This document shows, in pieces, positions 32,056 through 52,081 of a stretch of DNA of 64,000 bases. Where the stretch lies: positions 62,001 through 126,000 of the forward strand of contig NZ_JAAARM010000017.1 in the NCBI RefSeq assembly GCF_009908285.1, given 5' to 3'. The notes beneath the pieces are model-generated. The model saw nothing but the letters and a program-made list of their open reading frames with translations. It made no database searches and had not been told where the DNA came from. This DNA comes from Pseudomonas sp. Fl4BN1. GTDB lineage: Bacteria; Pseudomonadota; Gammaproteobacteria; Pseudomonadales; Pseudomonadaceae. The number at the start of each line of letters is the position of its first letter. Positions within the stretch are counted from its first letter, which is position 1. The translations under genes were made by a program, and so were the position numbers.

Positions 32056-32505
32056 TCAATCCGGCCATTTCCTCAATGCTGCCCGGCAGTCTTCTGTCAG
32101 CTCGGCCATGTGCTCTTGCACCTCTGGCCAACCCAGCATCTCCAGCGCCTCCCGGGCACCTTGGCGCAGCGGCTGCCATTGCCCATGCTCGAAGCCGTTG
32201 TCCTCAAGAGTCACTCCATAGGCTTGCCGGCATAAGGTTTCACAGGCCTGTAACAAGGCTTGCAATCGCAGGTGCAGTTGTGGCGCCAGATGCGCAGGAA
32301 AGTGCTGCAGATAATCGAGATGGTCTGACCATAGGTTGCACTCGGCGCAGCAGTCGATTGCCTCTCGTTGCTGGTCCGCCTCCAGGACCAGGAACTCCAG
32401 GGCCGGGCCCAGTTCGCCCACCAGGATGATCTTTGAGTATTGCTCCTGGCCGTACCAGGTCCAGATGTTCGAGGCGAGGGCGGCGCCGCGGTCATTGTGG
32501 TTCAC
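32056..32505 (-). CDS. Hypothetical protein, about 149 residues
   Basis: No family was recognised. The predicted protein is helical and acidic, with a Cys pair (IDCCAECNLW) and several His residues and no signal peptide. The GTG at 32505 is chosen because GGAG lies seven bases upstream and the GTGA overlaps the stop of the GFA gene, a sign of translational coupling. The two products may act together, but nothing in the sequence says how. Confidence 0.55.
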   Translation of the reverse strand: MNHNDRGAALASNIWTWYGQEQYSKIILVGELGPALEFLVLEADQQREAIDCCAECNLWSDHLDYLQHFPAHLAPQLHLRLQALLQACETLCRQAYGVTLEDNGFEHGQWQPLRQGAREALEMLGWPEVQEHMAELTEDCRAALRKWPD

Positions 32506-32888
32506 GGAGCGACTCCGGCCTGCCACCAGCGTGGCCGTTTACCGCTGAAGGAGTGATGAGTCGGCATCAGCGCCTTGCGGTTGTTACTGTCGAATGTACC
32601 CAGCAGCAAGGCAATGGTCGGCTCATCGTCGATGGCCCCCAGGGAGCTGCCGCATTGCGAACAGAACGCCCGGCTCGAATAGTCCGATGACCTGTAGGTG
32701 GCTGGCGCGCCGCCGGGGCCGGTCCAGCTCACCTGCTCCCGGGGGAATTCGACCCAGGCCACGGTCAGCGCTCCGCTGTGCCGTTGGCACAGTTTGCACG
32801 AGCAGGTATGGGGGTTGGCGGCGGGGCCTCGGGCCTCGAAACGGATCTGCCCGCACAGGCAGCCACCCTGGTAGATCATTGCGGTCAT
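32502..32888 (-). CDS. GFA family (CENP-V/glutathione-dependent formaldehyde-activating-like) protein
   Basis: The 128-residue zinc protein has the GFA cysteines: GGCLCGQIRFEA, then CSCKLCQRHSG, and AFCSQCGSSLG. The founding member was proposed to speed the reaction of formaldehyde with glutathione, but the activity is doubtful for most relatives. The ATG at 32888 follows AGGGAA. Its proximity to a Fae homologue on the other strand is noteworthy but may be chance. It is coupled to the small gene downstream. Confidence 0.8.
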   Translation of the reverse strand: MTAMIYQGGCLCGQIRFEARGPAANPHTCSCKLCQRHSGALTVAWVEFPREQVSWTGPGGAPATYRSSDYSSRAFCSQCGSSLGAIDDEPTIALLLGTFDSNNRKALMPTHHSFSGKRPRWWQAGVAP

Positions 32889-33013
32889 CACGGCTTCCCT
32901 GGCGCGCTGCAAAATCGAAGGGCGACTCTAGCATGTCCGCCTGCTGGCGCGTCCCCCTCAACGGCTCGGGTTTCGTGGGCGTTGCCAGGGTGTTCGATGA
33001 CGCAGCCCGGACC

Positions 33014-33471: not shown

Positions 33472-33984
33472 ATGACACCACTCGACCTGTATATCGGTGA
33501 AGGCTTCGAAGGCCCGGGCGTCAACGCCGCCCATATCAATATCCTCATCGGCCCGCGCAACGGTCCCGCCGGGCAGGCTTTCGCCAGCAGCCTGGCTTCG
33601 CCGAGCCAGGGCCACTGCCCGTTCATGGTGATCGCCCAGCCGAACATCCCGGTCAAGCCCATGACCCTGTACGTGAACAAGGCGGCCATCGCCAGCGAGC
33701 TGCACGGCAACGCCACCTGGGGCGCGTCCCAGGCCGGGATTGCCAAGGCGGTGCTGGAGGCCTTGCTGGACGGCACCTTGCCGGCCGAAGCCGAAGACCA
33801 ATGGGCCATCGTCACCGCCAACTGGGTCAACCCGGCCTGCGACGACCTGGATGCGGTCTACCTGAACAACTACAACGCCTGCCGCACAGCGATTCGCGCG
33901 GCCCTGGCCGGCAAGCCCGAACGCGCCCAACTGGCCGACGTGGTGAACCAGATCAGCAACCCGTTCTACACCCCCAAAGCCTGA
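33472..33984 (+). CDS. Formaldehyde-activating enzyme (Fae) homologue
   Basis: The 170-residue protein matches Fae along its length: GEGFEGPGVNAAHINILIGPR with His21 at the place of the catalytic His of methylotroph Fae, then PAGQAFASSL, IPVKPMTLYVNKAAI and the AGIAKAVLEALLDGTLP helix. Fae condenses formaldehyde with tetrahydromethanopterin. Pseudomonads are not known to make that cofactor and no such genes are in the window, so the true reaction may differ. It heads a tight operon with an aldo/keto reductase, an aldehyde dehydrogenase and an MFS transporter. Confidence 0.8.
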   Translation: MTPLDLYIGEGFEGPGVNAAHINILIGPRNGPAGQAFASSLASPSQGHCPFMVIAQPNIPVKPMTLYVNKAAIASELHGNATWGASQAGIAKAVLEALLDGTLPAEAEDQWAIVTANWVNPACDDLDAVYLNNYNACRTAIRAALAGKPERAQLADVVNQISNPFYTPKA

Positions 33985-33994
33985 GGAGCAGCGC

Positions 33995-35029
33995 ATGCAA
34001 TACATTCGTTTGGGCCATTCCGGCCTGCAAGTCTCGCGCCTGTGCCTGGGCACCATGAACATGGGCACTCCGGACTGGAAACCCTGGATCTTCGATGAAA
34101 AGCAAAGCGAGCCGATCGTCGCGCACGCCCTGGATCACGGGGTGAATTTCATCGACCTGGCGGATTTCTATTCCGCCGGCGTCGGTGAGCAAGTGGTGGG
34201 GCGCATCGTCAAGCGCCTGGCCCGCCGCGAGGACCTGGTGATCACCACCAAGGTCGGCTACGGCACCCGCAGCGGGATCAACGCCAGCGGCCATTCGCGC
34301 AAGCACATCCTCGACAGCATCGATGCCTCGCTCAAGCGCCTGGACATGGATTACGTCGATGTCTTCATGCTGCATTACTTCGATGTGAACACCCCGGTGG
34401 AAGAGACCATGAGCGCGATGAACGACATCGTGCGCGCCGGCAAGGCCCGCTACATCGGCGTGTCCACCATGCTCGCCGGGCAACTGGCGAAGATCCTCAT
34501 GGCCTGCGAGCGCAACGGCTGGGTCAAGCCGATCAACATGCAGCTGCAACTGAACTGTGCCTACCGCGAGGAAGAGCGCGAGATGATCCCGTTCTGCCGC
34601 GACCAGGGCCTCGGTGTGTCGGTGTTCAGCCCGCTGGCCCGAGGGCTGCTCACCGGCGACGTGCAGTCGACCCGCAATCAGACCGACTTCTTCACCCAGC
34701 AGATGTACAGCGACGAAGCCTCGCTGCAGATCGCCCATTCGGTGCAGCGTGTGGCCCGTGCCCGTGGCGTACCCAATGCGCAGATCGCCCAGGCCTGGGT
34801 GCTCAACCATTCGGGTGTCGATTGCATGCTGGTGGGGGCCGACACCACCGAACAGTTCGACAGTGCCCTGGCGGCCCTCGATACGCCGCTGGATGCCGAG
34901 GAGCTGCACGAGCTGGAGCGCAACTACACCCCGTGCGATGTGATCAACGATTACACCGCAGGCTGTCGCATCCTGCGCAGTGCCCGTCCGGGCCTTGAGC
35001 GCTTCACCCTGACCGAGGCCGTGGCATGA
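33995..35029 (+). CDS. Aldo/keto reductase
   Basis: The 344-residue enzyme is a TIM-barrel NADPH oxidoreductase with the AKR tetrad in FIDLADFYSAG (Asp and Tyr), VITTKVGYG (Lys) and VFMLHYFD (His). The C-terminal PNAQIAQAWVLNH and LVGADTTEQFDSAL segments bind the nucleotide. It lies ten bp after fae and overlaps the next gene by four bases (ATGA), so it is translationally coupled to the aldehyde dehydrogenase. It probably reduces or oxidises the carbonyl intermediate of the pathway. Confidence 0.88.
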   Translation: MQYIRLGHSGLQVSRLCLGTMNMGTPDWKPWIFDEKQSEPIVAHALDHGVNFIDLADFYSAGVGEQVVGRIVKRLARREDLVITTKVGYGTRSGINASGHSRKHILDSIDASLKRLDMDYVDVFMLHYFDVNTPVEETMSAMNDIVRAGKARYIGVSTMLAGQLAKILMACERNGWVKPINMQLQLNCAYREEEREMIPFCRDQGLGVSVFSPLARGLLTGDVQSTRNQTDFFTQQMYSDEASLQIAHSVQRVARARGVPNAQIAQAWVLNHSGVDCMLVGADTTEQFDSALAALDTPLDAEELHELERNYTPCDVINDYTAGCRILRSARPGLERFTLTEAVA

Positions 35030-36459
35030 GCACGCTGATCCGCAATGGCAACTACATCGATGGCCAATGGTCCCACGGTGGCCCCAGCTACCGGGTGTTC
35101 AACCCGGCCAACGGCGAGCTGATCGCCGAGGTACAGAAGGCCGGTGCCGAAGCCACGGACCTGGCCATCGCCGCCGCCAACCGCGCCTTGCCGGCGTGGC
35201 GCAAGCTCACCGCCAAGGAACGCAGCCAGAAGCTCAAGCGCTGGAGCGAGCTGATGCTGGGCAACCAGCGTGAACTGGCCACCTTGCTCAGCCGCGAGCA
35301 AGGCAAGCCGCTGGCCGAAGCCATGGGTGAAGTGGTCTACGCCGCGAGTTTTCTCGAGTGGTTCGGCGAGGAAGCCAAGCGCGCCTATGGCGACGTGATC
35401 CCCAGCCACAAGGCCGATGCGCGAATCATCGTGACCAAGGAAGCGATTGGCGTGGTGGCGGCCATCACCCCCTGGAACTTCCCGCTGGCCATGGTCACGC
35501 GCAAGGTCGGCCCGGCCCTGGCCGCTGGTTGCACGATGATCCTCAAACCCTCGGAAGAGACACCGTTGTCGGCCTTCGCCCTGGCGGTACTGGCCGAACA
35601 GGCGGGTATTCCAGCCGGCGTGTTGAACATCGTTTCCGGTGATGCAGTGGCCATCGGCGGCGCGCTGCAAGCCTCCAGCGTGGTGCGCAAGCTGTCGTTC
35701 ACCGGCTCGACCCGCACTGGCAAGCTGCTGATGCGCCAGGCCGCCGACACCCTGAAAAAAGTCTCCCTGGAACTGGGCGGCAACGCGCCGTTCATTGTTT
35801 TCGACGATGCCGACCTGGATGCCGCGGTGAAGGGCGCCATGGCTTCGAAGTTCCGCAACACCGGGCAGACCTGCGTGTGCGTCAACCGCTTCTTTATCCA
35901 GGACAGCGTGTACGAGGCCTTCACCCGCAAGCTGGCAGACGCGGTCGCGGCCATGCGCGTGGGCAGCGCCTTGGACGGTGATACCGAGCAGGGCCCGCTG
36001 ATCAACGCGGCGGCGCTGGCCAAGGTCGAGCTGCATGTCGGCGATGCGCTGGAGAAGGGCGCGACGTTGCTGTGTGGCGGTCGCCGGCATGCACTGGGCG
36101 GGACCTTCTTCGAGCCGACCATCCTCACTGAAGCCACCGGCGACATGCTGATCGCCCAGGAAGAAACCTTCGGCCCAGTGGCCGCCTGTTTCCGTTTCAA
36201 GGACGAGGCCCAGGTGCTGCAGCAGGCCAACGACACGCCCTTCGGTTTGTCCGCCTATTTCTACAGCCGTGACATCGGTCGGGTGTGGCGCATGGCCGAA
36301 GGCCTGGAGGCCGGGATGGTCGGGATCAACGAAGGGATCATCTCCACCGAAGTGGCGCCGTTCGGCGGGATCAAGGAATCCGGTCTCGGCCGCGAAGGTT
36401 CCAGGTACGGCCTGGACGACTACCTGGAGATCAAATACCTGCTGATGGGCGGCCTCTGA
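35026..36459 (+). CDS. NAD(P)-dependent aldehyde dehydrogenase (succinate-semialdehyde dehydrogenase-like)
   Basis: The 477-residue enzyme has the ALDH active site: Glu in SLELGGNAPF, Cys in NTGQTCVCVNRFF and the NAD-binding ITPWNFPLAMVTRK. Similarity in style is to the GabD/succinate-semialdehyde dehydrogenase group, though substrate cannot be fixed. It is in the fae operon after the aldo/keto reductase. A perfect 12-bp hairpin follows its stop. Confidence 0.88.
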   Translation: MSTLIRNGNYIDGQWSHGGPSYRVFNPANGELIAEVQKAGAEATDLAIAAANRALPAWRKLTAKERSQKLKRWSELMLGNQRELATLLSREQGKPLAEAMGEVVYAASFLEWFGEEAKRAYGDVIPSHKADARIIVTKEAIGVVAAITPWNFPLAMVTRKVGPALAAGCTMILKPSEETPLSAFALAVLAEQAGIPAGVLNIVSGDAVAIGGALQASSVVRKLSFTGSTRTGKLLMRQAADTLKKVSLELGGNAPFIVFDDADLDAAVKGAMASKFRNTGQTCVCVNRFFIQDSVYEAFTRKLADAVAAMRVGSALDGDTEQGPLINAAALAKVELHVGDALEKGATLLCGGRRHALGGTFFEPTILTEATGDMLIAQEETFGPVAACFRFKDEAQVLQQANDTPFGLSAYFYSRDIGRVWRMAEGLEAGMVGINEGIISTEVAPFGGIKESGLGREGSRYGLDDYLEIKYLLMGGL

Positions 36460-36466
36460 AGCCAGG

Positions 36467-36496
36467 CCCCTTGCCGCATACGGCTGCGGCAAGGGG
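36467..36496 (+). terminator. Intercistronic hairpin after the aldehyde dehydrogenase
   Basis: CCCCTTGCCGCA, loop TACGGC, TGCGGCAAGGGG: a perfect 12-bp stem eight bases after the stop. No T-run follows, so it is more likely an mRNA-stabilising or attenuating hairpin than a full terminator. It would lower expression of the transporter relative to the enzymes. Confidence 0.55.
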
Positions 36497-36526
36497 TGCT
36501 CGACCCCGATTCATCTCTTATTCAAA

Positions 36527-36534
36527 AACAATAA
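36527..36534 (+). promoter_or_regulatory. Candidate Hfq/Crc motif at the MFS ribosome binding site
   Basis: AACAATAA (AAnAAnAA) ends two bases before GGAG of the transporter ribosome binding site, the usual place for Hfq/Crc translational repression. This is the best placed of the motifs seen in the window. Confidence 0.45.
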
Positions 36535-36546
36535 ACGGAGACGAAC

Positions 36547-37905
36547 ATGACCACCGCAACCGTCAAGATCGATGACCTGCCGATTGGCCGGTTCCACCTG
36601 AAGATCGCCGGGCTGACGTTCGGCGCGCACTTCACCGATGGCTACATTCTTGGCCTGATCGGCATTGCCTTCACCCTGCTCAGTCCGCAGATGCAGTTGG
36701 ACGCCTTCTGGCAGGGGCTGATCGGCGCCTCGGCGCTGATCGGGCTGTTTATCGGCAGCCTGTTCTTCGGCTGGATCTCCGACCACCTGGGACGGCAGAA
36801 GATCTTCCTGGTCAGCTTCGTGCTGATCACCCTGGCCTCGGTGATGCAGTTCTATGCCGAGACCGCCATGGGCCTGTTTTTCTGCCGGGTGCTGATCGGC
36901 ATTGGCCTGGGCGGCGATTTCAGCGTCGGCCACGCGATGCTCGCCGAGTTCGCGCCGAAAAAGCACCGCGGCGTATTGCTCGGTTCGTTCAGCGTGATCT
37001 GGACCTTCGGCTACGTCGCCGCGACCTTTATCGGCACCGCCATGCTCAGCCTGGGCGATGACGCCTGGCGCTGGATGCTGGCATCCTCGGCGATCCCGGC
37101 CGGGTTGATCCTGCTGGCGCGCATCGGCACCCCGGAGTCGCCGCGCTGGCTGGTCAATCGTGGGCGCATTGCCGAGGCCCGGGCCATCGTGCACAAACAC
37201 CTGGGTGCCAACGTGGTGCTCGACGAACAGCCCAGCGGCGAAAGCCGTTCCGGCTACGCGGTGCTGTTCAGCCCCGAGTACCGCAAGCGCACGGCGTTCA
37301 ACTGCCTGTTCTTCGTGTGCATCGTCATGCCGTACTTCGCCATCTACACCTTCTTGCCATCGATCCTGCAGAAGATGGGCCTGGCCGAAGGCTTCGGCAC
37401 CGAGTTGATGCTCAACCTGCTGTTGATCCTCGGTGCGCTGATCGGCATCTGGTGCACGGTGAAATTTTCCCGCCGGGGGTTTTTGATCAACTCCTTCATC
37501 ATCCTCGCCGTGGCATTGCTGCTGTTGGCGGTGCTGCCGGGCAGTGCGGCCTGGCTGATGGTGCTGCTGTTTGGTGTTTTCACCCTGGTGTTGTCGGCGG
37601 TGAGCAACCTGGTGGGGGTGTTCCCGGCAGAGAGTTTTCCCACTGAAGTGCGCGCCAGCGGCATCGGCCTGGCCACCGCCGTCAGTCGCCTGGGTTCGGC
37701 CATCAGCACCTTTCTGCTACCGGTGAGCGTGGCCGGGATCGGCCTCAGCCCAACCATGGCCATCCTCGCGGCGATCCTTGCCCTGGGGGCCTGGATCTCC
37801 TGGGCCTGGGCGCCGGAAACCAAGTCCCTGACGTTGAGCCAGGCGTGCAGCGTGCACAGCCCTGAACCTGTCGCCAACCTGCCCAAGGTCGTCGCGCCGA
37901 TCTGA
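36547..37905 (+). CDS. MFS transporter (sugar/organic-acid porter type)
   Basis: The 452-residue permease has twelve predicted helices, the loop 2-3 motif FGWISDHLGRQKIF and, after helix 6, the PESPRWLVNRGRIAEA segment typical of the sugar-porter and aromatic-acid groups. It is the last gene of the fae operon and probably imports its substrate. GGAG precedes the ATG. REP-like sequence follows its stop. Confidence 0.85.
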   Translation: MTTATVKIDDLPIGRFHLKIAGLTFGAHFTDGYILGLIGIAFTLLSPQMQLDAFWQGLIGASALIGLFIGSLFFGWISDHLGRQKIFLVSFVLITLASVMQFYAETAMGLFFCRVLIGIGLGGDFSVGHAMLAEFAPKKHRGVLLGSFSVIWTFGYVAATFIGTAMLSLGDDAWRWMLASSAIPAGLILLARIGTPESPRWLVNRGRIAEARAIVHKHLGANVVLDEQPSGESRSGYAVLFSPEYRKRTAFNCLFFVCIVMPYFAIYTFLPSILQKMGLAEGFGTELMLNLLLILGALIGIWCTVKFSRRGFLINSFIILAVALLLLAVLPGSAAWLMVLLFGVFTLVLSAVSNLVGVFPAESFPTEVRASGIGLATAVSRLGSAISTFLLPVSVAGIGLSPTMAILAAILALGAWISWAWAPETKSLTLSQACSVHSPEPVANLPKVVAPI

Positions 37906-38007: not shown

Positions 38008-38883
38008 TCAAGGGTTGCTCACCAGGCTCAGCCATTGGGTGAACAGCCGCACCTTGGACAACCCCTGCCGATCACTCGCCACCTCAAGCCAGTAACCGTA
38101 AGGGCCGATCACTTCTACCGGAGTGATCGGCAGCAGGCGTCCGTCCGCCAGTTCCCGCTCGATCATCTGCCGGTCGATCACCGCCAGCCCGCCACCTGCC
38201 AGGGCGGTATGGATCACTTGGTCCAGGGTGCTGAACTCAAGGCCCGCTTGGGCGTCGACATCGTCCCGGCCCATGGCCGCCAGCCAGTTCTCCCAGACCC
38301 GCAGGCGCTTGCCGTCATGCAGGATGTGCAGCAGGGGAAAGCGGCGCAGGTCCGGTGCCTGGCCGGCACTGAACAGCTCCGGGCTGGCCACCGCGATATG
38401 GCGCTCCATCACCAGCAACTGGCTGTGGCAATGCGTGGCGGCGTGCATGCCGAAACGGATCTCACAGTCGATTTGCGCCGGGCTGTCATGGCTGTTGTGC
38501 TGGGTCACGCTGAGGCTGATGTCCGGGTAGCGCTGGCAGAAGTCGCGCAACTGCGCCGACAGCCAGCGGGTGGCCCAAGTCGGCGGCGCGACAATCCGCA
38601 GGCGTTGGCGCAGGTTGGGCACGCGCAATGCTTGCAGCGCCCGCTCCATGTGATCGAAGGCCTGCCCCAGGTTCGGCGCCAGGGCTGCGCCGGCCTCGGT
38701 CAGTTCCAGGCCTCGCGGGTTGCGGCTGAACAGCGCCACCCCGAGGTAATCCTCCAGTTGCTTGATCTGTCGGCTGACGGCGCCCTGGGTGACGCTGAGG
38801 ACCTGTGCGGCCTGGCTGAAGCTGCGGTGGCGGGCGACTTCTTCGAAGACCCGGAGCATGTTCAGGGAGGGCAGTTGACGCAT
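38008..38883 (-). CDS. LysR family regulator (GcvA-like)
   Basis: The 291-residue protein has a LysR helix-turn-helix (residues 4-62; MLRVFEEVARHRSFSQAAQV, VTQGAVSRQIKQLEDYLG) and an effector domain with the GcvA/AmpR-type pattern. The start at 38883 gives MRQLPSLNMLRVFEE. It is convergent with the fae operon and is the nearest regulator to it and to the porin remnant, so it may control both. It is similar in layout to the LysR protein at 47862. Confidence 0.85.
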   Translation of the reverse strand: MRQLPSLNMLRVFEEVARHRSFSQAAQVLSVTQGAVSRQIKQLEDYLGVALFSRNPRGLELTEAGAALAPNLGQAFDHMERALQALRVPNLRQRLRIVAPPTWATRWLSAQLRDFCQRYPDISLSVTQHNSHDSPAQIDCEIRFGMHAATHCHSQLLVMERHIAVASPELFSAGQAPDLRRFPLLHILHDGKRLRVWENWLAAMGRDDVDAQAGLEFSTLDQVIHTALAGGGLAVIDRQMIERELADGRLLPITPVEVIGPYGYWLEVASDRQGLSKVRLFTQWLSLVSNP

Positions 38884-39058
38884 GGCGGGCAGACTCCGCA
38901 CCTGGCGCCAGGAAGGAGCGGCCGAGCCTGGCAGGCGGGGCGCTGGACGTGGCGGGGCAGGCTTATTGTTGTTGTAAGGCGCTTGTTCAGCGCGCCCATC
39001 TTACCCTGTAGCCGCCCTTGGAGGGTGCTGGCTTGCCGGCCAAGAGGACCTTGAGATC

Positions 39059-39150: not shown

Positions 39151-40095
39151 TCAGAAGTAGTAGCCAATATTCACATACAGCTGGTTTTCCCACTGGTTGC
39201 TGCCGCCGGGGCCCAGGCTCTGGGCATAGCTGCTGCCGCCGATGTAGGGATCGTTCTTGCCGAACAGCCACTCGGTGGCGACCCACAGTCGGCTCAGCGA
39301 AAACGAGCTGCCAAGGATCATCCGTTGCGAGGTCTGGTAGCCGCTGGCGGATTTCTCGAAGGCGCTGTAGTTGGTGTACAGCTTGATCCCGCTGACCTGG
39401 TCGAACAGGTACTTGCCGTCCACCGCATAGCTCAGGTCGGCGACATACAGGTTGCCGCGACTGGCGACGTTGAAGGTGCCGTCATAACCGCCCAGGGTCA
39501 CCAGCTCGTCGGTGCCCGGATTGCGCGGCGACATCTGCTGGCGCGCCGCCTGCAACTGCACGCCCCAGGGCCCGTTCTTGCCCAGGTAGTGCAGGGCCAG
39601 GGCATTGCGCCGGCCATCGTGGCGGGTGTCGTTGTTCTTCAGGGTCGAGGTCAGGCCGGAGACCCCGACTTCCGAGGCCCAATCCCCCAGTTGCACGGCC
39701 CTGGCCAGCCGCAGCACCAGGGTATTGCGTTCACGGTTGTCACTGCCATCGGCCACGTAGCGGTCGGCGGAGGACACCACGCTGGAGTAGGTACGGCCGT
39801 TGCTGGTGCCCTTGCCTTGCCAGGCCGGGCGCAGGTAATAGCCGGCCTGGAGATTCCACGCGCCGCTCTGCTGGATGTACTTGGCGCCGACCTGTTCGAT
39901 GTCCTCCAGGCCCACCACGTTGCCCAGGGTTTCGAAAAAGCTACTGCCGAAATACGGCTGCAGGCCGAAGGGGATCTGGTTCAGGCCGACCTGCACCTGC
40001 TGTTCGGGGGTGAAGCGGTAGCCGATCCAGGCGCTTTCGGCGAAGGCGATGTCGCCGACCTTGTCGGTGTAGCGATAGGGGTACTTGGATGGCAT
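39151..40095 (-). pseudogene. Outer-membrane porin, 5' truncated
   Basis: The 314-residue frame codes for the C-terminal part of a beta-barrel porin: alternating amphipathic strands, YRFTPEQQVQVGLNQIPFG, GAKYIQQSGAWNLQAGYYLRP, and a C-terminal Phe (NIGYYF) needed for Bam recognition. A stop codon (TAA) directly precedes the first ATG, and there is no signal peptide or N-terminal strands, which such porins of about 400 residues require. The coding similarity ends abruptly near 40090, where a different + strand coding fragment begins. It is read as a gene cut by recombination. Confidence 0.7.
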
Positions 40096-40763: not shown

Positions 40764-42815
40764 ATGTTCGCGCCAGCCAATACCGCGCATTTCGAACTAC
40801 AGATCCCCTCTGTACGCAACGATTTCAAGGTGCTGACCTTTGATGGCCTTGAGGCCCTCAGCGCCTTGTATGCGATTCGGATTGAGTTGGTCAGTGAGTA
40901 CCCCGATTTTGATCTGGAGAGCCTGCTCTGCCAGCCGGCCTTTCTTCAGTTTGGTCTGGGTGGTGAAGGGATTCATGGGCACATCGAAGATGTGCAGATG
41001 GGGAAAGCGGGTAAGCGCTTGACCCGTTATCACCTGACCTTGGTCCCCGTACTGCACTATCTGCAATTCAGCTACAACCAACGAATTTTCCAGCACTTGA
41101 GCGTGCCGCAAATCGTTACTCAGGTGCTCAAGGGCCATGGCCTGCAGACAGATGTATTTACCTTCCATGTCAGTGCCAGCCCCGAGCGCGACTATTGCAC
41201 TCAGTACGGCGAAAGTGACTTCGACTTTATCCAGCGTCTGTGCAGTGAAGACGGCATCGCCTGGCACCACCAGCACAGCCAGGACGGTCACCGCCTGGTG
41301 TTCAGTGAAGACCAGACCTATTTTCCGAAACTTGGCCCGACTCCGTATCAACCCGGCAGCGGCCAAGTTGCCGATCACCCTGTGGTCAGCCAGTTCTCCC
41401 AGCGCTTCAGCACCCGTACCAGCACCACAACGCGCCGTGACTACGATTTCAAACGGCCTAGCCTATTGCTAGAAAACCAATTCACCGCCGAGTTCAGCCC
41501 CGCGCTGGAGGATTATCGCTACCCGGTGCCGATGACCTCGCTGGAGCACGGCAAGGTGCTATCGAGGCGGGCCCTTGAGCGCCACCGAGCGGACTATCAA
41601 CTGGCTGAAGGTCACAGCGATCAGCCGACCCTGCGCAGCGGGCATTTTTTTGACCTGACCGACCATCCACGCAAGACGTGTAACGATTTATGGCTGTTGC
41701 TCAGCGTCCATCACTCGGGCAAACAACCGCAAGCTTTGGAAGAGTCGATCACCCATGAGGAGCCCCCCGCAGATGGCTTCACCCAGGGTTACCGCAACCG
41801 CTTCAGTGCGATTCCCTGGGACGTGTTCTACCGTCCACCGCTGGTCACCCGTAAATCAGTGCTGGTCAGCCAGACCGCCCGTGTGACGGGGCCGCCCGGA
41901 GAAGAAATATTTTGTGATGAATATGGCCGTGTCCGTGTCGAGCTGCCCTGGGATCGAGCTGAACGCAACAGTGAGAAGAGCAGTTGCTGGCTGCGCGTGT
42001 CATCCAGCTGGGCGGGAGATGGTTTTGGTGCAGTGACTATTCCACGCATCGGTATGGAAGTAGTAGTGACCTATTTAGAGGGCAACCCCGACCTACCGTT
42101 AATTACCGGATGCGTGGTGAATAAGCTCACCTCTACGCCATACCCCTTGCCGGCTAACAAAACCAAGACTGTGTTACGTAGCCACAGTTCACCACACAGT
42201 GGTGGCTACAACGAACTGTCGATTGAAGACCGCGCCGGGCAGGAACTGATCTATCTACGTGCTCAGCGTGATATGGAGCAGAGGATCGAAAATGATAGCC
42301 GGTTAGAAGTCGGTAACGAACGTCGAGAGACCATCAAGGGCAATAGCATCACGGTACTCGAAGCTGAAGAGCAACGTACCGTCATCGCTGACCGTAAAGT
42401 GGATCTCAAAGCCAACGACTATTTGCAGGTCGCTGGCAGCAGTCATACCCGTGTAGGGTAAACGGTGGTGATTGAGGCCGGACAACAAGTGCACATCAAG
42501 GCCGGTGCTCATCTGATACTCGATGCTGGGGTCAGTACGACATTGAAGGGGGGTGGTCAGCATATCGTGATTGGCCCTAGTGGTATTTTCAGCAGTACCA
42601 ATATTGTAATTGGTGGTGCACCCGTTGCGGGAACCGCAGCAGCTCCCGTGTTGCCAGGGATGCTCGAAGGGTTGTCGGAGCCGGCAGTATTGCCGCTCCC
42701 TAGTCTTTCGTTTTACCAACAGCAGTCGGTGGCGGGGGCTCTCCTGCCAACTCCCGGCTGCCAGCTCGATGCATCGGGCCATTGCCCGATTCACCAACCA
42801 GGTAAAACGGCATGA
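40764..42815 (+). pseudogene. vgrG: Type VI secretion tip protein VgrG with an internal stop codon
   Basis: The first frame (40764-42461, 565 residues) contains the gp27-like and gp5/OB parts of VgrG: HFELQIPSVRNDFKVL, YGESDFDFIQRLCSEDGIAW, GEEIFCDEYGRVRVELPWDR, GDGFGAVTIPRIGMEV and YLEGNPDLPLITG. It stops at TAA 42459-42461 after SSHTRVG. The same frame then resumes with TVVIEAGQQVHIKAGAHLIL (to 42815), the normal continuation of VgrG, where family members usually have VGQ-x-x-VIEAG. A single CAA to TAA change explains the break. A truncated protein would keep the trimer core but lose the C-terminal beta-helix that loads the adaptor and effector. Read-through or a sequence error are alternatives. 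Confidence 0.8.
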
Positions 42816-43645
42816 TCAAATCCATCTCATCGCCTTTTCAGGTGCCTGCCGCACCGGGATTCTTATGCGCGATTCTAGACGCTAGTTTTGACCCAGACTT
42901 GCAAGATCACGTTGACCAGGCCATCGGTTACGGTGCTGAGCGCTGCATCCCACTATTCGACAACACACCCTACGGAGCTCTGCAAGCTGCTGGGCCGTTC
43001 GTTTTGCTGTGTCCGCTGCCTGGTGCATTGATGGAGTACGCCGGCACGCTGCTTGAACAGGCCTACGCCGGGTGCGTGGCCTACCTGGAGAGTGAACACT
43101 CCTTCGAGCAGGCTATCGAGCATTGGCGCAGCCTGCTCACTGTCGGCACCGATGATACGCCGGCCCAACTGATGCGTTTTTTTGACCCTCGCTGGTTGGA
43201 GCCACTGCTGAACAGCCTTGATGAAACCCAGATGCTGAAATTCATGGGGCCGCTCACCGACATAGCTTGGCGCAACGAGCTGGGCTGGCGTCATTTGGCT
43301 CATCCTCGACCTGAACCAGGGGCAGAGATTCAAGATCCCGGATGGCTGCACTTGGGGTGCGAGCGTCAGGCCCTCATGGATCTTCAGCGCTTGAAGGTGT
43401 TGGCAGGACGGCTCGCCCAGGATTATCGGGCGGTATTGCCCATGCCCGAGCCAGTGGCGTTCGTGTATCAGCAACTGCTTGCGGCCCGGAACACAGGGTA
43501 TCTGCAAGTGGCCGAGCAGGAGCGCTGGCTACGTCTGGCGCTGCGTCAGGGCGATGGCTTCTGGAACCGCTCCCCACATACCGAATTATTGGCCCGTGAT
43601 GACCTGGGTCTTGGCGACAAGCTGATCGCGCTTGAGCGCCTCTGA
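42812..43645 (+). CDS. DUF4123 type VI effector adaptor (Tap/TEC)
   Basis: The 277-residue protein has the DUF4123 domain (about 15-130; FLCAILDASFDPDLQDHV, PFVLLCPLPGALMEYA, LLTVGTDDTPAQLMRFFDPRWL). Proteins of this family are chaperones that load a specific effector onto the C-terminus of its VgrG. The start overlaps the end of the vgrG frame by four bases (ATGA), which supports that the region after the internal vgrG stop was once translated. The likely client is the LysM protein encoded 19 bp downstream. Confidence 0.85.
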   Translation: MIKSISSPFQVPAAPGFLCAILDASFDPDLQDHVDQAIGYGAERCIPLFDNTPYGALQAAGPFVLLCPLPGALMEYAGTLLEQAYAGCVAYLESEHSFEQAIEHWRSLLTVGTDDTPAQLMRFFDPRWLEPLLNSLDETQMLKFMGPLTDIAWRNELGWRHLAHPRPEPGAEIQDPGWLHLGCERQALMDLQRLKVLAGRLAQDYRAVLPMPEPVAFVYQQLLAARNTGYLQVAEQERWLRLALRQGDGFWNRSPHTELLARDDLGLGDKLIALERL

Positions 43646-43664
43646 ATCACAAGGACGATGATGG

Positions 43665-46172
43665 ATGAACAGTACTTACACGGTTCAAAGCGGCGATACA
43701 TTGGGCCAAATTGCCCAGCAACACGGGGTTAAAGCGGCGGAAATACAAGCGCTGAATCCGATCATCAGTGACCCCAACCACATCAAGCCTGGTTGGGCTC
43801 TGAAGCTCCCCGACACTGCACGCAAGCTGGCATTGCCACCACCGATGTACGCGCATAACACCAGCTCTATCGCCATTAAAGGACAGGCCGAATGTGACGA
43901 AGAACTGGTCGATGTGGCCCACATTACTGGCGAATCGCACTTTTATGTACTGACCGACAAACAATCCAAGGCTTTGAAGCAGGAAATCAGCGCTGTTCAG
44001 AAACTGATGGATGAGCTGCATCAGAACCTGGCGAAAGCCTTGCCCATCACCCAATGCCAAAGGCCCCAAGACCCTAACTCCAGTTGCGCGTGTGCCGGTT
44101 GCGTGAAAGAGGCTTGGGGGGGCAAGGCTGAAGGTGCGGGATTGCTGATGCGCGTGCCCAAGCCCCTGCTAAACAAAGCCGCACCGCTGATGACCGATAA
44201 AGACCTTGAAGGACAACTGGCGACCTTGCAGAAGGCCCGTGCTTGGTATCAGAGTTACACGCCCAGTTTTTTTGGAACAACGCAGTTTGAAAGCAACTGG
44301 AAGTTTTTGCAGAGCAAAAAGGTGCTGGAGTTAGAGATAGATATTGCGGAGTTGCACGGCAAACTGGCGGCTCAAAGAACAGTCGAGCCGCAAGACAGCT
44401 CATCCCATGCCAATAGTGCTGCGCCCAATTTGAACTACGGCAAAGGGCGTAGTGTTGAAACTCAGCGTGGCAAGCAAAGCAGGACTGGTGTTTCTGTGGT
44501 GGAAATCATCCTGTTCAGCGATCCCACTCGTCGCCACTTTATCTCTATCCCATACCGCAACACTACCTCTTGGCGTGTTCGTGTTTCGACGCGGGCCATG
44601 GCCGGTAAACCGTTCAGTAAGCAATTGGCCGCGGATCTGATGAAGGACATCAAAGAAGCCGTCGGTGGCGGGCGCAAGGCCGGCCCTTTGGGTAACCTTG
44701 AACTCAAGATCAGTACCTGGAGCAGCAAGGAAGATAACCTGCTCAACACACTACATAAGGAAGTGACCTGGACGTCCAATCAGCGCGATGCGGCTCGCTA
44801 TGCAGTATCCGCAGAAGCTCATGCTCTGCGCTTTGCTGCCAGCGCCAGTGCCGGCGTGAACAACTGGAACCCCAAAGAAGGCAGTATCGATGTTGGTGCG
44901 AAAGGCAGCGCCGCGTTCTCCCTGGCAGAGGCTTCAGCATCGTTGAACCGATTTTTCCCTAGCCGGGGCGGGTATGTCGCGAACATGTCGTATCGCAATG
45001 CCTTAGGTAAGGAAGTGCTGCACCCGATGGGCGTGTTTCGCGTGAGTGGCAAGCTGGAGTTGTCGTGCTTTGTCGGCGCTAAAGCGGGAGGAGAAGCGGG
45101 AGTCAAAGTCCAATACAAACCTACCGAAACCCCGGCTGGGGCTACTGCTCTGTTAGGTACACCGACCATGGAAGTCGGCCCCAGTGGCAACATTGGTGTC
45201 AAGGGCGATGCTTTTGCCGGAGCCCAAGCAGGTGGTGCGCTGAGCGGGGCCTTCGAGTGGGTTGAGCCGGACAATATGGGCAGAGGGAAAACCGTTGTCG
45301 GCCAGACCCATGCCAATAGCAGTTGGGCCAAACTGGCCGAGGTCAAGGCGGAAGGCAACATCGCTTTTGGTGTCGGTGCTAGCGGTGAGTTTGGTATCAG
45401 TATTTCCAAAAACCGATTGGCGTTTAACTGTAAAGGCTCTCTGGTGTTCGGGCCTGGTGCCGGTGGTGGATTTGGTACGTTGGTGGATCTTGAGCAGGTC
45501 GGAAAACTGACTTTACTGTTTTGCAATGCTCTGGCTGATATGGACTATAGACATTTATTGGGTGTGACGACGGAGGCTTTTGGCTATCTAACTACTGGGA
45601 TATACCAAGTTGCAGTAGCGCCAGGTAAAGCAATTATCAATGCGTTTGATGATAGTGCTTTGAAAATGCGCGACTGGTGGATGGCGCGTGATGCATCGAA
45701 GGCCGAAGCGAAAAATTTGGCGAACTATGTGATCAAGCACAAATCCGATAAAGTATTGATGGTTAGGGGGCAACGTCTACCTTTTAGGCTACTTCCGCCA
45801 GAATCGCTTGGTCCAATGGTCTATATGTTGACGGAGGGATTTGTCGAGAGCTTTAATGAACTGCAAGAAGAGGCACTTGTAATTCTTCTTTCAGAGATAC
45901 GGAGTTGGCGGCAATTTATCGAAGTGCTTGAGCACTGCTCGCCGAAGGCGGGAAAGGTAAATGCGATGGAGAGTCTGGAACGAATCAACGCATTGTTGGA
46001 TGGGTATGAGCAAGGCCAGTTCAATCGATTTGTTGATGGCCTAGTAATTAATCAGACAACTAAGAGCTCGACGAGTTCGACCAGAATGGCGTGGAGTCCT
46101 AGCAATGCTTGGCGGAAAGAGAGAGTGCTGATAGCTGCTCGCAATAGCGGCAAATTTGATGGCTTAGCTTAG
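43665..46172 (+). CDS. LysM-domain putative type VI secretion effector
   Basis: The 835-residue protein has a LysM domain at residues 4-49 (YTVQSGDTLGQIAQQHGV ... INHIKPG-type end), which binds peptidoglycan. A Cys cluster follows at 131, 141, 143 and 146 (SSCACAGC). A glycine/alanine-rich section at about 465-630 (GAKAGGEAGVKV, GDAFAGAQAGGALSGAF, GVGASGEFGISI) could be membrane-active, as in some pore-forming effectors. No known catalytic motif was seen. Position after vgrG and a DUF4123 adaptor strongly suggests a secreted antibacterial effector. AAGGA precedes the start. Base composition is AT-richer than the core genes. Confidence 0.65.
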   Translation: MNSTYTVQSGDTLGQIAQQHGVKAAEIQALNPIISDPNHIKPGWALKLPDTARKLALPPPMYAHNTSSIAIKGQAECDEELVDVAHITGESHFYVLTDKQSKALKQEISAVQKLMDELHQNLAKALPITQCQRPQDPNSSCACAGCVKEAWGGKAEGAGLLMRVPKPLLNKAAPLMTDKDLEGQLATLQKARAWYQSYTPSFFGTTQFESNWKFLQSKKVLELEIDIAELHGKLAAQRTVEPQDSSSHANSAAPNLNYGKGRSVETQRGKQSRTGVSVVEIILFSDPTRRHFISIPYRNTTSWRVRVSTRAMAGKPFSKQLAADLMKDIKEAVGGGRKAGPLGNLELKISTWSSKEDNLLNTLHKEVTWTSNQRDAARYAVSAEAHALRFAASASAGVNNWNPKEGSIDVGAKGSAAFSLAEASASLNRFFPSRGGYVANMSYRNALGKEVLHPMGVFRVSGKLELSCFVGAKAGGEAGVKVQYKPTETPAGATALLGTPTMEVGPSGNIGVKGDAFAGAQAGGALSGAFEWVEPDNMGRGKTVVGQTHANSSWAKLAEVKAEGNIAFGVGASGEFGISISKNRLAFNCKGSLVFGPGAGGGFGTLVDLEQVGKLTLLFCNALADMDYRHLLGVTTEAFGYLTTGIYQVAVAPGKAIINAFDDSALKMRDWWMARDASKAEAKNLANYVIKHKSDKVLMVRGQRLPFRLLPPESLGPMVYMLTEGFVESFNELQEEALVILLSEIRSWRQFIEVLEHCSPKAGKVNAMESLERINALLDGYEQGQFNRFVDGLVINQTTKSSTSSTRMAWSPSNAWRKERVLIAARNSGKFDGLA

Positions 46173-46184
46173 TAGTGCACTAAG

Positions 46185-46212
46185 AAATGGCACTAATTAG
46201 CGCCATTTTTTG
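46185..46212. terminator. Bidirectional terminator between effector and lipoprotein genes
   Basis: AAATGGC, a 10-base loop, GCCATTTTTT: a 7-bp stem with a T-run on the + strand and TTTC on the - strand. It lies between two convergent genes and can end both transcripts. Confidence 0.65.
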
Positions 46213-46216
46213 AACG

Positions 46217-47209
46217 CTATATCTGCTTCTCTGATTGAATGGCACAGCGAAAACTCGCTCCTGCATAATGGCCATCCTGTACAGGTTCAACACTCCAGCG
46301 GCGAACTGTGTTGGCACTGAGTAGCGGATCCTCCAGCATATTTGCTCCTCTCCAGACCCGTTCGCTGCCAGTGTTTGGTCCTTGAGGGTTTTCGACGGGT
46401 GAATGGCGGTAATAATCTTTGTCATACCAATCATTGACCCAGTCAGTCGCATTACCTGAAAGGTTGTAGATACCCAATGGATTAGGGACGAATTTATCTA
46501 CTGGGAATGTGTCCATTTCATCCGGTTCTGGAAAATTTCGTCCGTAATTCAAACTACCATTGTCGGTAGGGAACACTACGTGTTGGCCACGGTTTCGAGC
46601 GGCATATTCCCATTGCGCCTCAGTTGGTAGGTCGACCGGATAACCACTCACCTGGCCTAGCCAACCGCAATAATCCTTGGCCTCTTGCCAGCTTTGGGCC
46701 GGTGCAGGTAGGTTGGGCGCGTAGAGCTCCTTCAAATCTTCTCGCTTGCGATTTTCCGCATTAAATAGTGGTTTGCCCTGAGCGATAAAGAACAAGTCAA
46801 AATCGCCTAGCGTGGCTTGGAATTTCGACAGAGAGTAACTGCTCAGCTTAACGGGATGAACGAAGTCGTCGTCGCCATCCATACTGATGCGCCCCATCCG
46901 CTCTGGTTCGACACCGCATGGCCAATTGCACATATTGGTGGGGTCATCATCATAAGGCCAACCAAAATCCCCCATCTGAAACTCGCCACCTTCGACGAAT
47001 ACCATGTTGTCCAGAGACTGTACGACGGTACTGAGCAGCTTGCCACGAACCTCAGTGGGAAGTTTTGGGTATTTCTGTTCGATGGTCGCAGCAATCTGAG
47101 CAACTTTGTCAGGCGAGAGTTTTTGACTTTTAGGGAAAGGGGATGATTGTGCTTGGCAGCCAGTCAGCAGCAATAAAATATAGGTAGGTAACAAAATCTG
47201 TCTTATCAC
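46217..47209 (-). CDS. SUMF1/FGE-fold lipoprotein, candidate immunity protein
   Basis: The GTG at 47209, seven bases after TAAGGA, gives a 330-residue lipoprotein: signal peptide residues 1-17, lipobox LTGC with Cys18. The mature part has the formylglycine-generating-enzyme fold: FVEGGEFQMGDFG, LPTEAQWEYAARNRG, LGIYNLSGNATDWVNDW and the final ASFRCA. The Cys pair that performs catalysis in true FGE is absent (only the FRCA Cys remains), so sulfatase activation is unlikely. It is convergent with the effector gene and shares the island's composition, which fits a periplasm-facing immunity protein. That role is inference. Confidence 0.7.
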   Translation of the reverse strand: MIRQILLPTYILLLLTGCQAQSSPFPKSQKLSPDKVAQIAATIEQKYPKLPTEVRGKLLSTVVQSLDNMVFVEGGEFQMGDFGWPYDDDPTNMCNWPCGVEPERMGRISMDGDDDFVHPVKLSSYSLSKFQATLGDFDLFFIAQGKPLFNAENRKREDLKELYAPNLPAPAQSWQEAKDYCGWLGQVSGYPVDLPTEAQWEYAARNRGQHVVFPTDNGSLNYGRNFPEPDEMDTFPVDKFVPNPLGIYNLSGNATDWVNDWYDKDYYRHSPVENPQGPNTGSERVWRGANMLEDPLLSANTVRRWSVEPVQDGHYAGASFRCAIQSEKQI

Positions 47210-47745
47210 AGGAATATCCTTATATGTGTATATCCAATGCTCAAAGTCTACCATTTTTCTTGCTCGACATAACTTCACTTGCGAGGATTTAGAATGATTC
47301 GTCGGTATTTCTAAAGAGGTATTCAGCCGCCGGTGGCGCTATTGCGAACCTCAAAAAGGGTTACATTTTTTATATGAGATTCTGTCGTCGTTGAATCAAT
47401 CAGCCGCAGCACGAACAGTGCAGCAATAACTGAGCACGGTGCGCTGAAACTGTCTTGCTTTCCCTGCGCTTCGCACAGGGCCGGGCTTTCGTGCTGCGCA
47501 TGGAGTCAGGTCGAACAGCCGACCTGCCTCCACCCTTCGGGCATCAATCCCTAACGCCTCTAGCCTGACGGCCTGCGTGCTCCACTTGCTATAAGCGCTA
47601 CGGCGAGTATTCGTGCCGAACACTCATACCGTTTTTCAACCGACGCTTGCAGGGTGCAGGCGTGGCAGGGCGAGTGGGGCATGGGCAGGGCTCGTGTGGT
47701 GGTTTTTTACAAGGTTCCCGCAGTGTTGGCATCCGCAGGTGGCGC
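47210..47745. other. Right flank of the type VI island, no supported gene
   Basis: A 75-residue frame at 47396-47623 (- strand) exists but has no ribosome binding site and an odd composition. The segment 47440-47620 is GC-rich with short inverted repeats such as CCTGCGCTTCGCACAGG. It may be the end of an older element; nothing was identified. The GC content returns to the core level around here, marking the island border. Confidence 0.35.
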
Positions 47746-47791: not shown

Positions 47792-47861
47792 GCCAGTTGG
47801 CTGGCGATGCAGTGGCGTGCGATGCTTGGCGCCCCTCAGCCGCTGTCAGCGAGAGACTGCC

Positions 47862-48800
47862 GTGAAACGCAAGATGCCCGCGCTCAATGCGCTCAAAGCT
47901 TTCGAAGTCGCCGGCAGCACCGGCAGTTTTACCCGCGCCGCCGAGCTGCTCAACGTCACCCAGAGCGCGGTCAGCCGCCAGGTCCGGCAGCTGGAGGAAC
48001 AGCTCGGGGAAAGCCTGCTGCAGCGCCGCCATCACCACCTCGAATTGACCAGCGCCGGGCGCGTACTGTTGCGGGCGCTGCACCAGTCCTTCGACAAGAT
48101 CGAGCTGACCTTGCGCGGCATCCAGCAGCAATCCCACACCAATCGCCTGCACCTCAATGTGCCGCCGACCTTTGCCAGTCGCTGGCTGCTGCCGCGCCTG
48201 GGGCGCTTGCGCGAACAGCATCCGCAGTTGCAGTTGAGCCTGAGCACGCGCCTGCAGGACAGCCTGGTGCAAACCAGTACCCTGGATTGCGCGATTCGCT
48301 TCGGCGACGGTGAATGGGATGGCCTGGACAGCTCGCTGCTGTTCCAGGAGCGGCATATCGCGGTCTGCGCGCCATCGCTGCTGGCCCGCGAATCGACCGA
48401 GCAGGGCATCGACCTGACGCGCATGACGCTGCTGCATGTGCTGGCGCGCGAAGACCAGCGCTATCTGACCTGGAAGCACTGGCTGGACGCTGCGCGGATC
48501 AGCGGTGTCGACACTCAGGGCGGCTATGAATTCGACCTGCTGGACCTGGCCATCCGCGCCGCGGTCGAGGGCCTGGGGGTGACCATCGCCGACTGGCACA
48601 TGGTGGCTGCGGAGTTGGCGGCCGGGCAGTTGACCCAGGTGCGCAATGTGCATGTGGAAGGCCATCAATCCTACTGGCTGGTGACCCGCCCGGAGCAGAC
48701 CCAGATGCCGCAGTTGCAGGTGTTTGGCCAATGGCTGCAGGAAGAGATCTGGTTGGCGCAACGTCAGCTAGAACCTTCTACCGCCTCGACGCCCCTGTAG
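47862..48800 (+). CDS. LysR family regulator (GcvA-like)
   Basis: The 312-residue protein has a LysR helix-turn-helix (residues 9-66; LKAFEVAGSTGSFTRAAELL, VTQSAVSRQVRQLEEQLG) and an effector domain with PPTFASRWLLPRL and DCAIRFGDGEWDG segments characteristic of GcvA-type regulators. GTG 47862 follows GAGAG; ATG 47874 is also possible. The twin 46-bp elements upstream of this gene and upstream of the aldehyde dehydrogenase suggest it controls itself and the catabolic unit that follows. Confidence 0.85.
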   Translation: MKRKMPALNALKAFEVAGSTGSFTRAAELLNVTQSAVSRQVRQLEEQLGESLLQRRHHHLELTSAGRVLLRALHQSFDKIELTLRGIQQQSHTNRLHLNVPPTFASRWLLPRLGRLREQHPQLQLSLSTRLQDSLVQTSTLDCAIRFGDGEWDGLDSSLLFQERHIAVCAPSLLARESTEQGIDLTRMTLLHVLAREDQRYLTWKHWLDAARISGVDTQGGYEFDLLDLAIRAAVEGLGVTIADWHMVAAELAAGQLTQVRNVHVEGHQSYWLVTRPEQTQMPQLQVFGQWLQEEIWLAQRQLEPSTASTPL

Positions 48801-50761: not shown

Positions 50762-52081
50762 ATGTCTAAACACGCCGGCGCTGCTGGGGTCCAGGCTTCT
50801 GCTGCGTTGCCATTGGGCAGCCGCGACACACGCAGCCGCTACGTTCAATTGATGCTGCTGGTGCTGGCGGCGGGGGCGATCTACCCGATCCTCTACCTGC
50901 GCCAGGTCTACCAGACCACCATGCTCGAAGTGTTGCAGATCAACCACAGCGAGCTGGGTTACCTGTACTCCATGCTCGGCACGATTTTTCTCCTCAGCTA
51001 CCTGCCCAGCGGCTGGCTGGCGGACCGCATCGCTCCGCGCTTCCTGATCTTCTTCTCCCTGGTGGCCACCGGTGCCTTGGGCCTGTGGTATTCCACTGCA
51101 CCTTCGATGAGCGGGCTGATGATCATCTTCGGCTGCTGGGGCCTGAGCACCGGCCTGACCTTCTGGGCCTCGGTGCTCAAGCGGGTGAAGATGATCGCCC
51201 GGCACTCCGAGCAGGGGCGTTTCTTCGGCATTCTCGATGGCGGTCGCGGCCTGGTGGAAGCCTTGCTGGCCACCGTGGCCCTGGGGCTGTTCGCATTGGC
51301 CACCGAGACCCGCGGCGAGTCGACGGCCGAGGGGTTCAAGCAGGTGGTGTACCTGTACTCCTTCACCTGTATCGCCATTGGCTGCGTGCTGGTGTTGCTC
51401 AAGGACCCCAAGTCCATGGCGGACACGGCGCCGGTGGAGCAGGGCAGGTTCAACCTGCTCAGCGACCTGGCGACCCTGGTGAAGATCCCCGAACTGTGGC
51501 TGGTGACCGCCATCGTGTTCTGCGGTTATCACATCTTCTGGGCCACCTACAGTTTCTCCGATTACCTGCAGGGCAACGGCATGACCGCAGTCATGGCCGG
51601 CACCATCACCACCATCAAACTGTGGATGCGCCCCCTTGGCGGCATCGGCGGCGGCTGGCTGGGCGACCGCTATTCCAACATCTCGGTGCTGATCTTTGCG
51701 CTGTTGCTGGCAACGTTGGGGATTGTCGGGCTGATCCTGTTCCCGGCCCTGGGCAGCCTTGGGCTGTTGATCGCTACGGTGATCTTCATCGGCCTGATGA
51801 CCTATGCGATTCGCGGGTTGTACTGGGCGATCCTCGACACCTGCCAGATCCCGCTGCGCATCACCGGCCTGGCCATTGGCATCGTCTCGGTGGTGGGCTA
51901 CCTGCCGGACACGTTCATTCCGTTGATCAACGGCTACCTCACCGAACACTTTCCCGGGGCCCTGGGCTACCGCCTGTATTTCGGCTACATCGCCGCGGTC
52001 GGCGCCCTCGGAACCCTGGCCGCGATTGCCCTGCGGGCACGCGTCAACCGTTCAACCCTGAAGCAGAAGGCAGGTGCCTGA
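50762..52081 (+). CDS. MFS transporter
   Basis: The 439-residue permease has about twelve predicted helices. The loop 2-3 motif is LPSGWLADRIAPRFL. It starts 142 bp after the aldehyde dehydrogenase and its stop is one base before the next start, so it is tightly linked to the enolase-superfamily gene. A GTG at 50744 is a possible alternative start. It probably imports the sugar acid or related compound used by the unit. Confidence 0.85.
   Translation: MSKHAGAAGVQASAALPLGSRDTRSRYVQLMLLVLAAGAIYPILYLRQVYQTTMLEVLQINHSELGYLYSMLGTIFLLSYLPSGWLADRIAPRFLIFFSLVATGALGLWYSTAPSMSGLMIIFGCWGLSTGLTFWASVLKRVKMIARHSEQGRFFGILDGGRGLVEALLATVALGLFALATETRGESTAEGFKQVVYLYSFTCIAIGCVLVLLKDPKSMADTAPVEQGRFNLLSDLATLVKIPELWLVTAIVFCGYHIFWATYSFSDYLQGNGMTAVMAGTITTIKLWMRPLGGIGGGWLGDRYSNISVLIFALLLATLGIVGLILFPALGSLGLLIATVIFIGLMTYAIRGLYWAILDTCQIPLRITGLAIGIVSVVGYLPDTFIPLINGYLTEHFPGALGYRLYFGYIAAVGALGTLAAIALRARVNRSTLKQKAGA

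Follow-up and report, generated by a model that had tools for sequence, protein, structure and literature searches.

The window analysed here is a 64 kb stretch of the 7.33 Mb genome of Pseudomonas sp. Fl4BN1, and the subject of this report is a gene within it that encodes a protein of the formaldehyde-activating enzyme (Fae) family. In methylotrophs and archaea, Fae works with tetrahydromethanopterin (H4MPT). The fae-like gene of the window heads an operon, referred to below as operon A, which is laid out with its linked genes as follows.

33472-33984, + strand: fae-like gene, 170 amino acids, Fae family, His21 (H21) kept; first gene of operon A
33995-35029, + strand: aldo/keto reductase (AKR), 344 amino acids; operon A
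35026-36459, + strand: succinate-semialdehyde-dehydrogenase-type aldehyde dehydrogenase (SSADH-type ALDH), 477 amino acids; operon A
36547-37905, + strand: MFS transporter, sugar/aromatic-acid type; operon A
38008-38901, - strand: LysR regulator, GcvA-like, convergent with operon A
39151-40095, - strand: putative outer-membrane (porin-like) protein, named by eye and linked to operon A

The AKR and SSADH-type ALDH genes overlap by 4 bp. Pfam gave no family for the porin-like protein at 39151-40095, and the copy in the window's genome is without the N-terminal ~72 residues that its relatives have.

Membership of the Fae family is clear. The protein covers positions 1-158 of the 159 in profile PF08714 (168.2 bits against a cut-off of 27), scores 136.7 bits with TIGR03126 one_C_fae, above the curated cut-off of 118.05, and in a search of solved structures matches the M. 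extorquens Fae structure 1y5y over residues 6-165 (E 6.7e-24). Its H21, which we take to be the catalytic His, aligns with the His that is fixed in canonical Fae, and the genome has no second Fae match. A sequence-only reading of this DNA had described a full-length Fae-like protein with His21, tightly linked to an aldo/keto reductase, an aldehyde dehydrogenase and a transporter; the profile, structure and alignment matches bear out the first part, and the linkage holds as well, being kept across the loci described below. Identity as a glutathione-dependent formaldehyde-activating enzyme (Gfa, PF04828) is ruled out, as the protein matches PF08714 only. A Gfa-type gene is present as a separate gene just upstream of fae (32502-32912). 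We compared the window with the best 80 of 194 loci holding relatives of its Fae (79 labelled Pseudomonas and one metagenome-assembled genome labelled Paucimonas), and because a Gfa-type gene is found on just 3 of these 80 (L002, L005 and L035), its place beside fae is probably due to chance. The gene treated in the available part of PMC5209427 is likewise Gfa, a different family, and that paper was set aside as a precedent; PMC12542648 also proved to have no bearing on this protein.

To place this protein in relation to H4MPT, we consider a draw of 298 Pseudomonas genomes, in which Fae is present in 58, or about one in five; mch was found in none of these 58 Fae-positive genomes. FTR was not found in the window's own genome, the one genome searched for it. 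RFAP synthase, a marker of H4MPT biosynthesis, was found in none of the six genomes that hold only the window-type Fae (G000, G005, G441, G461, G612 and G614, the window's genome included), and the same search recovered it in five of five H4MPT genomes serving as a positive control. A search with the Mpt_N profile gave no match in control genomes either and is given no weight. Among 398 genomes of the phylum, Fae matches occur in 23 (22 over the cut-off) and mch in 17, all of them among those 23. A full-length Fae occurs in five mch-free genomes, where it scores 163-171 bits, against mostly 226-236 bits, and in one case 212, for canonical Fae in the same set; the sixth mch-free match, in G364, is a 21-bit piece under the cut-off. 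One genome, G542, has both a Fae of the 163-171-bit band and H4MPT genes. Since mch, FTR and RFAP synthase were not found, the window protein is, as far as its sequence and genomic setting tell, not an ordinary H4MPT-linked Fae. The sequence-only reading had raised the possibility that H4MPT genes elsewhere would make it one, and the search through these three markers was negative; the accompanying description of the host as a non-methylotroph stands only insofar as the same three were not found.

The window-type proteins also form a lineage of their own. In a tree of 45 sequences (FastTree, midpoint root), those of Pseudomonas, Burkholderia, Caballeronia, Ensifer and Streptomyces clavuligerus branch together, apart from canonical Fae and from Fae2/Fae3 (the canonical and Fae2/Fae3 labels are our own), and the score bands set this clade apart from the same two groups. 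When 20 canonical sequences are compared with 19 of the clade, with fixation taken at the 95% level, 23 positions are fixed alike, including H21, K70 and Q87, and a further 14 are fixed but different, including D23N, Q78H, M82T and F83W. In canonical Fae (UniProt/1y60), the pterin is contacted by the Lys and Gln just named together with an Asp, a Leu and a Thr. At these positions the clade keeps K70 and Q87, carries N for D23, has lost T72 and varies at the Leu. On that basis, the clade Fae would have retained its catalytic residues while part of the pterin site would be altered.

Conservation of operon A extends well beyond the window. All 80 loci, and all of 30 further ones, hold Fae, AKR and SSADH together; over the 80, identity to the window averages 93.0% (Fae), 92.8% (AKR) and 91.7% (SSADH). 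The three genes are likewise grouped in Burkholderia, Caballeronia and Ensifer. Of the Pseudomonas genomes tested, 6 of 8 with Fae and 0 of 72 without it have an AKR ortholog (E 1e-110 or better). The two Fae-positive genomes lacking it are G121, whose Fae match covers profile positions 1-56 only, and G023, at whose locus (L156, 15000-18200) AKR and SSADH were not found and fae and the MFS gene remain; operon A therefore seems to decay as a unit. Its SSADH-type ALDH scores 691.8 bits with TIGR01780, over the cut-off of 646.35, and 734.8 bits with PRK11241, under the equivalog cut-off of 828. The carrier of operon A, on the other hand, is exchangeable between MFS and Dpp-type ABC transporters. 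Among 72 loci that extend 8 kb or more beyond the start of fae, 38 have MFS only, 24 have MFS together with a Dpp-type transporter, 10 have Dpp only and none has neither, a count that overlooks any Dpp gene lying outside the locus; the Dpp-type transporter thus accompanies 10 of 10 MFS-less loci versus 24 of 62 with MFS (Fisher p 2e-4, uncorrected for relatedness). The same Dpp-type transporter adjoins AKR-fae-SSADH in Ensifer. On a plasmid of S. clavuligerus (L143, 8959-12778), fae shares 4 bp with the final gene of a glycine-betaine-type ABC transporter, and ~0.8 kb after fae come a beta-hydroxyacid dehydrogenase (beta-HAD) and then SSADH. A nonribosomal peptide synthetase/polyketide synthase gene lies ~8 kb from this locus.

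A second operon in the window, operon B, spans 47.8-55.0 kb, with a VgrG region between it and operon A. This operon, its co-inheritance with Fae and the tie of AKR to Fae are new beyond the sequence-only reading. Its genes are listed here.

47817-48800, + strand: LysR regulator, start perhaps at 47865
49195-50619, + strand: aldehyde dehydrogenase, AldA-like
50762-52081, + strand: MFS transporter
52083-53300, + strand: enolase-superfamily acid-sugar dehydratase
53381-54994, + strand: GMC oxidoreductase, choline-dehydrogenase-like, under the choline dehydrogenase cut-off

Using a dehydratase ortholog threshold of E 1e-150 or better, we find the gene in 54 of the 298 Pseudomonas genomes, 53 with Fae and one (G130) without; both genes are present in 53, Fae only in 5, dehydratase only in 1 and neither in 239 (Fisher p 1e-51, uncorrected for relatedness). 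In 40 of the 53, fae and dehydratase share a contig, lying no more than 38 kb apart in 38 genomes and 0.5-0.8 Mb apart in two (one being G121); the other 13 have them on different contigs of draft assemblies, where nearness is still possible. The association recurs outside Pseudomonas. Eight Caballeronia/Burkholderia plasmid records carry a clade Fae of at least 60% identity, and six of them hold the dehydratase (82-85% identity) 9-14 kb away, SBC1 and SBC2 being without it among the matches listed. In the 398-genome set, a close dehydratase ortholog (84% or more) occurs in four genomes, all with clade Fae. Because fae is co-inherited with an operon of acid-sugar dehydratase, GMC oxidoreductase and ALDH, it probably acts in the catabolism of a sugar or polyol acid; the sugar catabolic path put forward in the sequence-only reading is to that extent probable.

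The dehydratase of operon B is of the acid-sugar type and falls below every equivalog cut-off listed, reaching 257.5 bits with the galactonate dehydratase model PRK14017, short of 311. Its homolog at L147 matches structure 4e4u at 823 bits and the families PF13378/PF02746, and the L147 homolog of the operon B ALDH matches lactaldehyde dehydrogenase (2hg2/2opx). The GMC oxidoreductase falls short of both cut-offs, with 572.6 of 605 bits for PRK02106 and 468.9 of 732.1 for TIGR01810. By eye, the window dehydratase (52083-53300) reads GTHG where galactonate dehydratase has the metal-binding DFHG, so its first metal ligand may be unusual.

Some further features of the region are recorded here. The block parting the two operons (40764-47278) holds VgrG, DUF4123, LysM-domain and sulfatase-modifying-factor-like genes. 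Past operon B, genes on the opposite strand (56200-58999) encode a DAO-type FAD oxidoreductase and a protein with a glutamine-synthetase domain, resembling polyamine PuuB/PuuA. Alignments of the upstream regions of operons A and B gave nothing usable as a shared promoter motif.

Other lineages offer a view of the operon B genes in different company. We fetched 20 dehydratase loci, of which 16 come from neither Pseudomonas nor the clade-Fae genomes G542, G612 and G614; the DNA is rich in G+C, and an apparent gene absence in these loci, or in the larger stretches that showed operon B beside operon A, may be a missed open reading frame. GMC oxidoreductase, dehydratase and beta-HAD occur together in 7 of the 16, with no Fae match seen there, and some genomes of another class have the same three genes and no Fae. 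The trio is also found without Fae on one Pararhizobium and one Ensifer plasmid, and the best solved relative of the Pararhizobium beta-HAD is 2-hydroxymethylglutarate dehydrogenase. Shinella plasmids have SSADH in place of beta-HAD, and Ensifer canadensis has neither. L177 also has two ALDHs, an MFS transporter and a TonB receptor, and L178 one ALDH with homologs of the L177 MFS transporter and TonB receptor. The dehydratases of L176 and L179 (62-66% identity) were not seen in a trio. Relatives at ~51-55% identity (L182-L187 and L194, one family) stand beside other genes (zinc alcohol dehydrogenase, MFS), probably have another function and were set aside; with L176 and L179 they make up nine of the 16 loci. 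Since GMC oxidoreductase, dehydratase and beta-HAD occur without Fae in these lineages, AKR may take the place of beta-HAD; the AKR of Pseudomonas and the beta-HAD found elsewhere look like mutual replacements, either of which would take an alcohol to the semialdehyde ahead of an SSADH-type ALDH that makes the dicarboxylate. At L180 (8381-12263), dehydratase and beta-HAD adjoin a solute-binding protein of family 5 (Dpp type), reminiscent of the Dpp transporters at operon A. Caballeronia Lep1P3 has a different fae (L161, 29673-30206), 33% identical and next to a gene of the isocitrate lyase/phosphoenolpyruvate mutase family; it lies ~14 kb from operon B, and no operon A is annotated in the stretch.

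We propose, with a probability of roughly 40%, that operons A and B together form a single oxidative catabolic route for a short, perhaps branched, polyol or sugar acid from plants, in which the Fae step would be pterin-free. The GMC oxidoreductase and the AldA-type ALDH would oxidise a CH2OH end to the acid, and the enolase-superfamily enzyme would dehydrate this to a 2-keto-3-deoxy acid: a tetritol or tetronate would give 4-hydroxy-2-oxobutanoate, and an apiose-like substrate its 3-hydroxymethyl form. AKR (beta-HAD in other lineages) would then convert the terminal alcohol to a semialdehyde, and the SSADH-type ALDH would take this to a dicarboxylate such as oxaloacetate. For a C4 substrate, formaldehyde chemistry enters naturally, because HOB aldolase makes 4-hydroxy-2-oxobutanoate from pyruvate and formaldehyde, as stated in the available part of PMC8879981. 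The clade Fae, working without H4MPT, may act on the hydroxymethyl/formaldehyde chemistry of 4-hydroxy-2-keto acids, most likely releasing (or re-adding) formaldehyde at the hydroxymethyl carbon through the retained His21/Lys70/Gln87 site. Freed formaldehyde could pass to the glutathione-independent formaldehyde dehydrogenase that the window's genome encodes (761 bits, cut-off 637). A bolder form of the proposal, which we consider doubtful, makes the protein a true, pterin-free carbon-carbon (or hydroxymethyl) lyase that removes formaldehyde from a sugar acid of the 4-hydroxy-2-keto (possibly 3-hydroxymethyl) kind. The pathway, so far undescribed, would lead from a plant tetritol, tetronate or branched sugar to oxaloacetate and be shared by Pseudomonas, Burkholderia, Caballeronia and Ensifer. 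Routes for vitamin B6, choline, trigonelline and pantothenate were dropped, as the genes to be expected for them are not in the operons, no dedicated search having been made.

A possible link to plants is found in the available part of PMC10061817, in which Burkholderia pyrrocinia P10 given peanut root exudate induces RS19795 (gabD; log2 fold change 1.89), RS19805 (dgoD; 1.72) and RS19810 (betA/GMC; 2.60). In the order of their tags and in their products, rather than by sequence, these match operon B; that part of the paper interprets the three genes separately.

Several observations weigh against the proposed pathway. Root exudate also changes the expression of many further genes in that account (PMC10061817). 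Nine of the 16 loci from other lineages show no GMC/beta-HAD trio, and where the trio is present, these lineages appear to run the operon B chemistry without Fae, so that Fae would not be needed for the basic route. The dehydratase is missing from 5 of the 58 Fae-positive Pseudomonas genomes (G023, G107, G129, G206 and G275), and G441 and G461 have operon A with no dehydratase match; operon A may for this reason have a substrate of its own. The glycine-betaine-type ABC transporter of S. clavuligerus fits a sugar acid poorly, and the AKR, MFS and Dpp families say little about the substrate. The AlphaFold model of the window Fae is too poor (pLDDT 41, pTM 0.42) to be of help, so that what we say of the pocket is drawn from the alignments.

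The same evidence can be read in other ways. Formaldehyde might leak from 4-hydroxy-2-keto acids by retro-aldol reaction and be captured by the clade Fae with tetrahydrofolate or another pterin, AKR and the ALDHs being the main pathway. We regard this as possible, in a tentative sense: H21, K70 and Q87 are retained, a tetrahydrofolate role is assumed for the methanotroph homolog Fae1-2 in the available part of PMC11748545, and Fae groups 2-4 are given there without a known function, but the two annotated stretches with operon A name no folate gene next to it, and positions of the pterin site are changed (D23N, T72 lost). A role for the clade Fae as a formaldehyde or aldehyde sensor or accessory, with operon A merely oxidising a 4-hydroxybutyrate-like acid to a dicarboxylate, seems unlikely to us. 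AKR or beta-HAD with SSADH would suffice for such an oxidation, and sensing or regulatory roles have been proposed for Fae homologs in the available parts of PMC3728764 and PMC11748545; however, the His is kept in 19 of 19 clade sequences, Fae is as conserved as AKR over the 80 loci (93.0 versus 92.8%), and LysR genes are already present.

That operons A and B are instead separate pathways, which co-occur in plant-associated strains while A acts on an imported acid or betaine of its own, has a small chance of being right. It would account for genomes that have operon A and no dehydratase (G441, G461 and some Pseudomonas), for the dehydratase without operon A in other lineages, in G130 and in the annotated stretch of Caballeronia Lep1P3, and for the coupling of A to a glycine-betaine-type transporter in S. 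clavuligerus. Against it stand the 53/5/1/239 distribution of Fae and dehydratase, their spacing of 9-14 kb in six of the eight Caballeronia/Burkholderia plasmid records, and the exchange of AKR for beta-HAD. An ordinary Fae working with H4MPT is very improbable; the score above the curated TIGR03126 cut-off speaks for it, whereas mch, FTR and RFAP synthase were not found and the protein belongs to a separate clade.

Whatever its reaction, the clade Fae is real, widespread and not explained by its present name. The window protein scores above the TIGR03126 cut-off, so that automatic annotation calls it 'formaldehyde-activating enzyme'; this label probably misleads in roughly one fifth of the Pseudomonas genomes sampled (58/298; mch 0/58). 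In the open-licence literature we found no description of an H4MPT-free Fae operon in Pseudomonas, and the phylogeny in the available part of PMC11748545 has five Fae groups, two with a defined function and three without. Because the clade Fae has a fixed operon, is co-inherited with another and occurs in laboratory-tractable hosts, an H4MPT-independent function of Fae becomes directly testable, and operon B offers a metabolic context for enolase-superfamily structures that lack a substrate name (4e4u and its relatives).

The L147 dehydratase homolog aligns end to end with 4e4u, 4e5t, 3rcy, 3t4w and 4j3z, titled mandelate racemase/muconate lactonizing enzymes; none of these structures carries a substrate name, and the window dehydratase is below the galactonate dehydratase cut-off. 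The operon A ALDH matches E. coli SSADH (3jz4) at 667 bits (E 1.5e-199) and has the Cys and Arg motifs, but it is under the PRK11241 cut-off and sits in a fae operon. Fae2/Fae3 of methylotrophs resemble the clade Fae as divergent members of the same family, and groups of Fae without a function exist (PMC11748545, as far as available); they differ in that six of their sequences have E or M where the His stands, in their branch, and in occurring in mch-positive genomes. As for canonical Fae, the window protein is 29-34% identical to the canonical loci compared, and from the M. extorquens enzyme (TIGR03126, 1y5y/1y60) it is set apart by 14 switched fixed positions, an oxidoreductase operon and the lack of H4MPT markers among those searched, while sharing with it the family, the length, the conserved His, Lys70 and Gln87, and 23 fixed positions.

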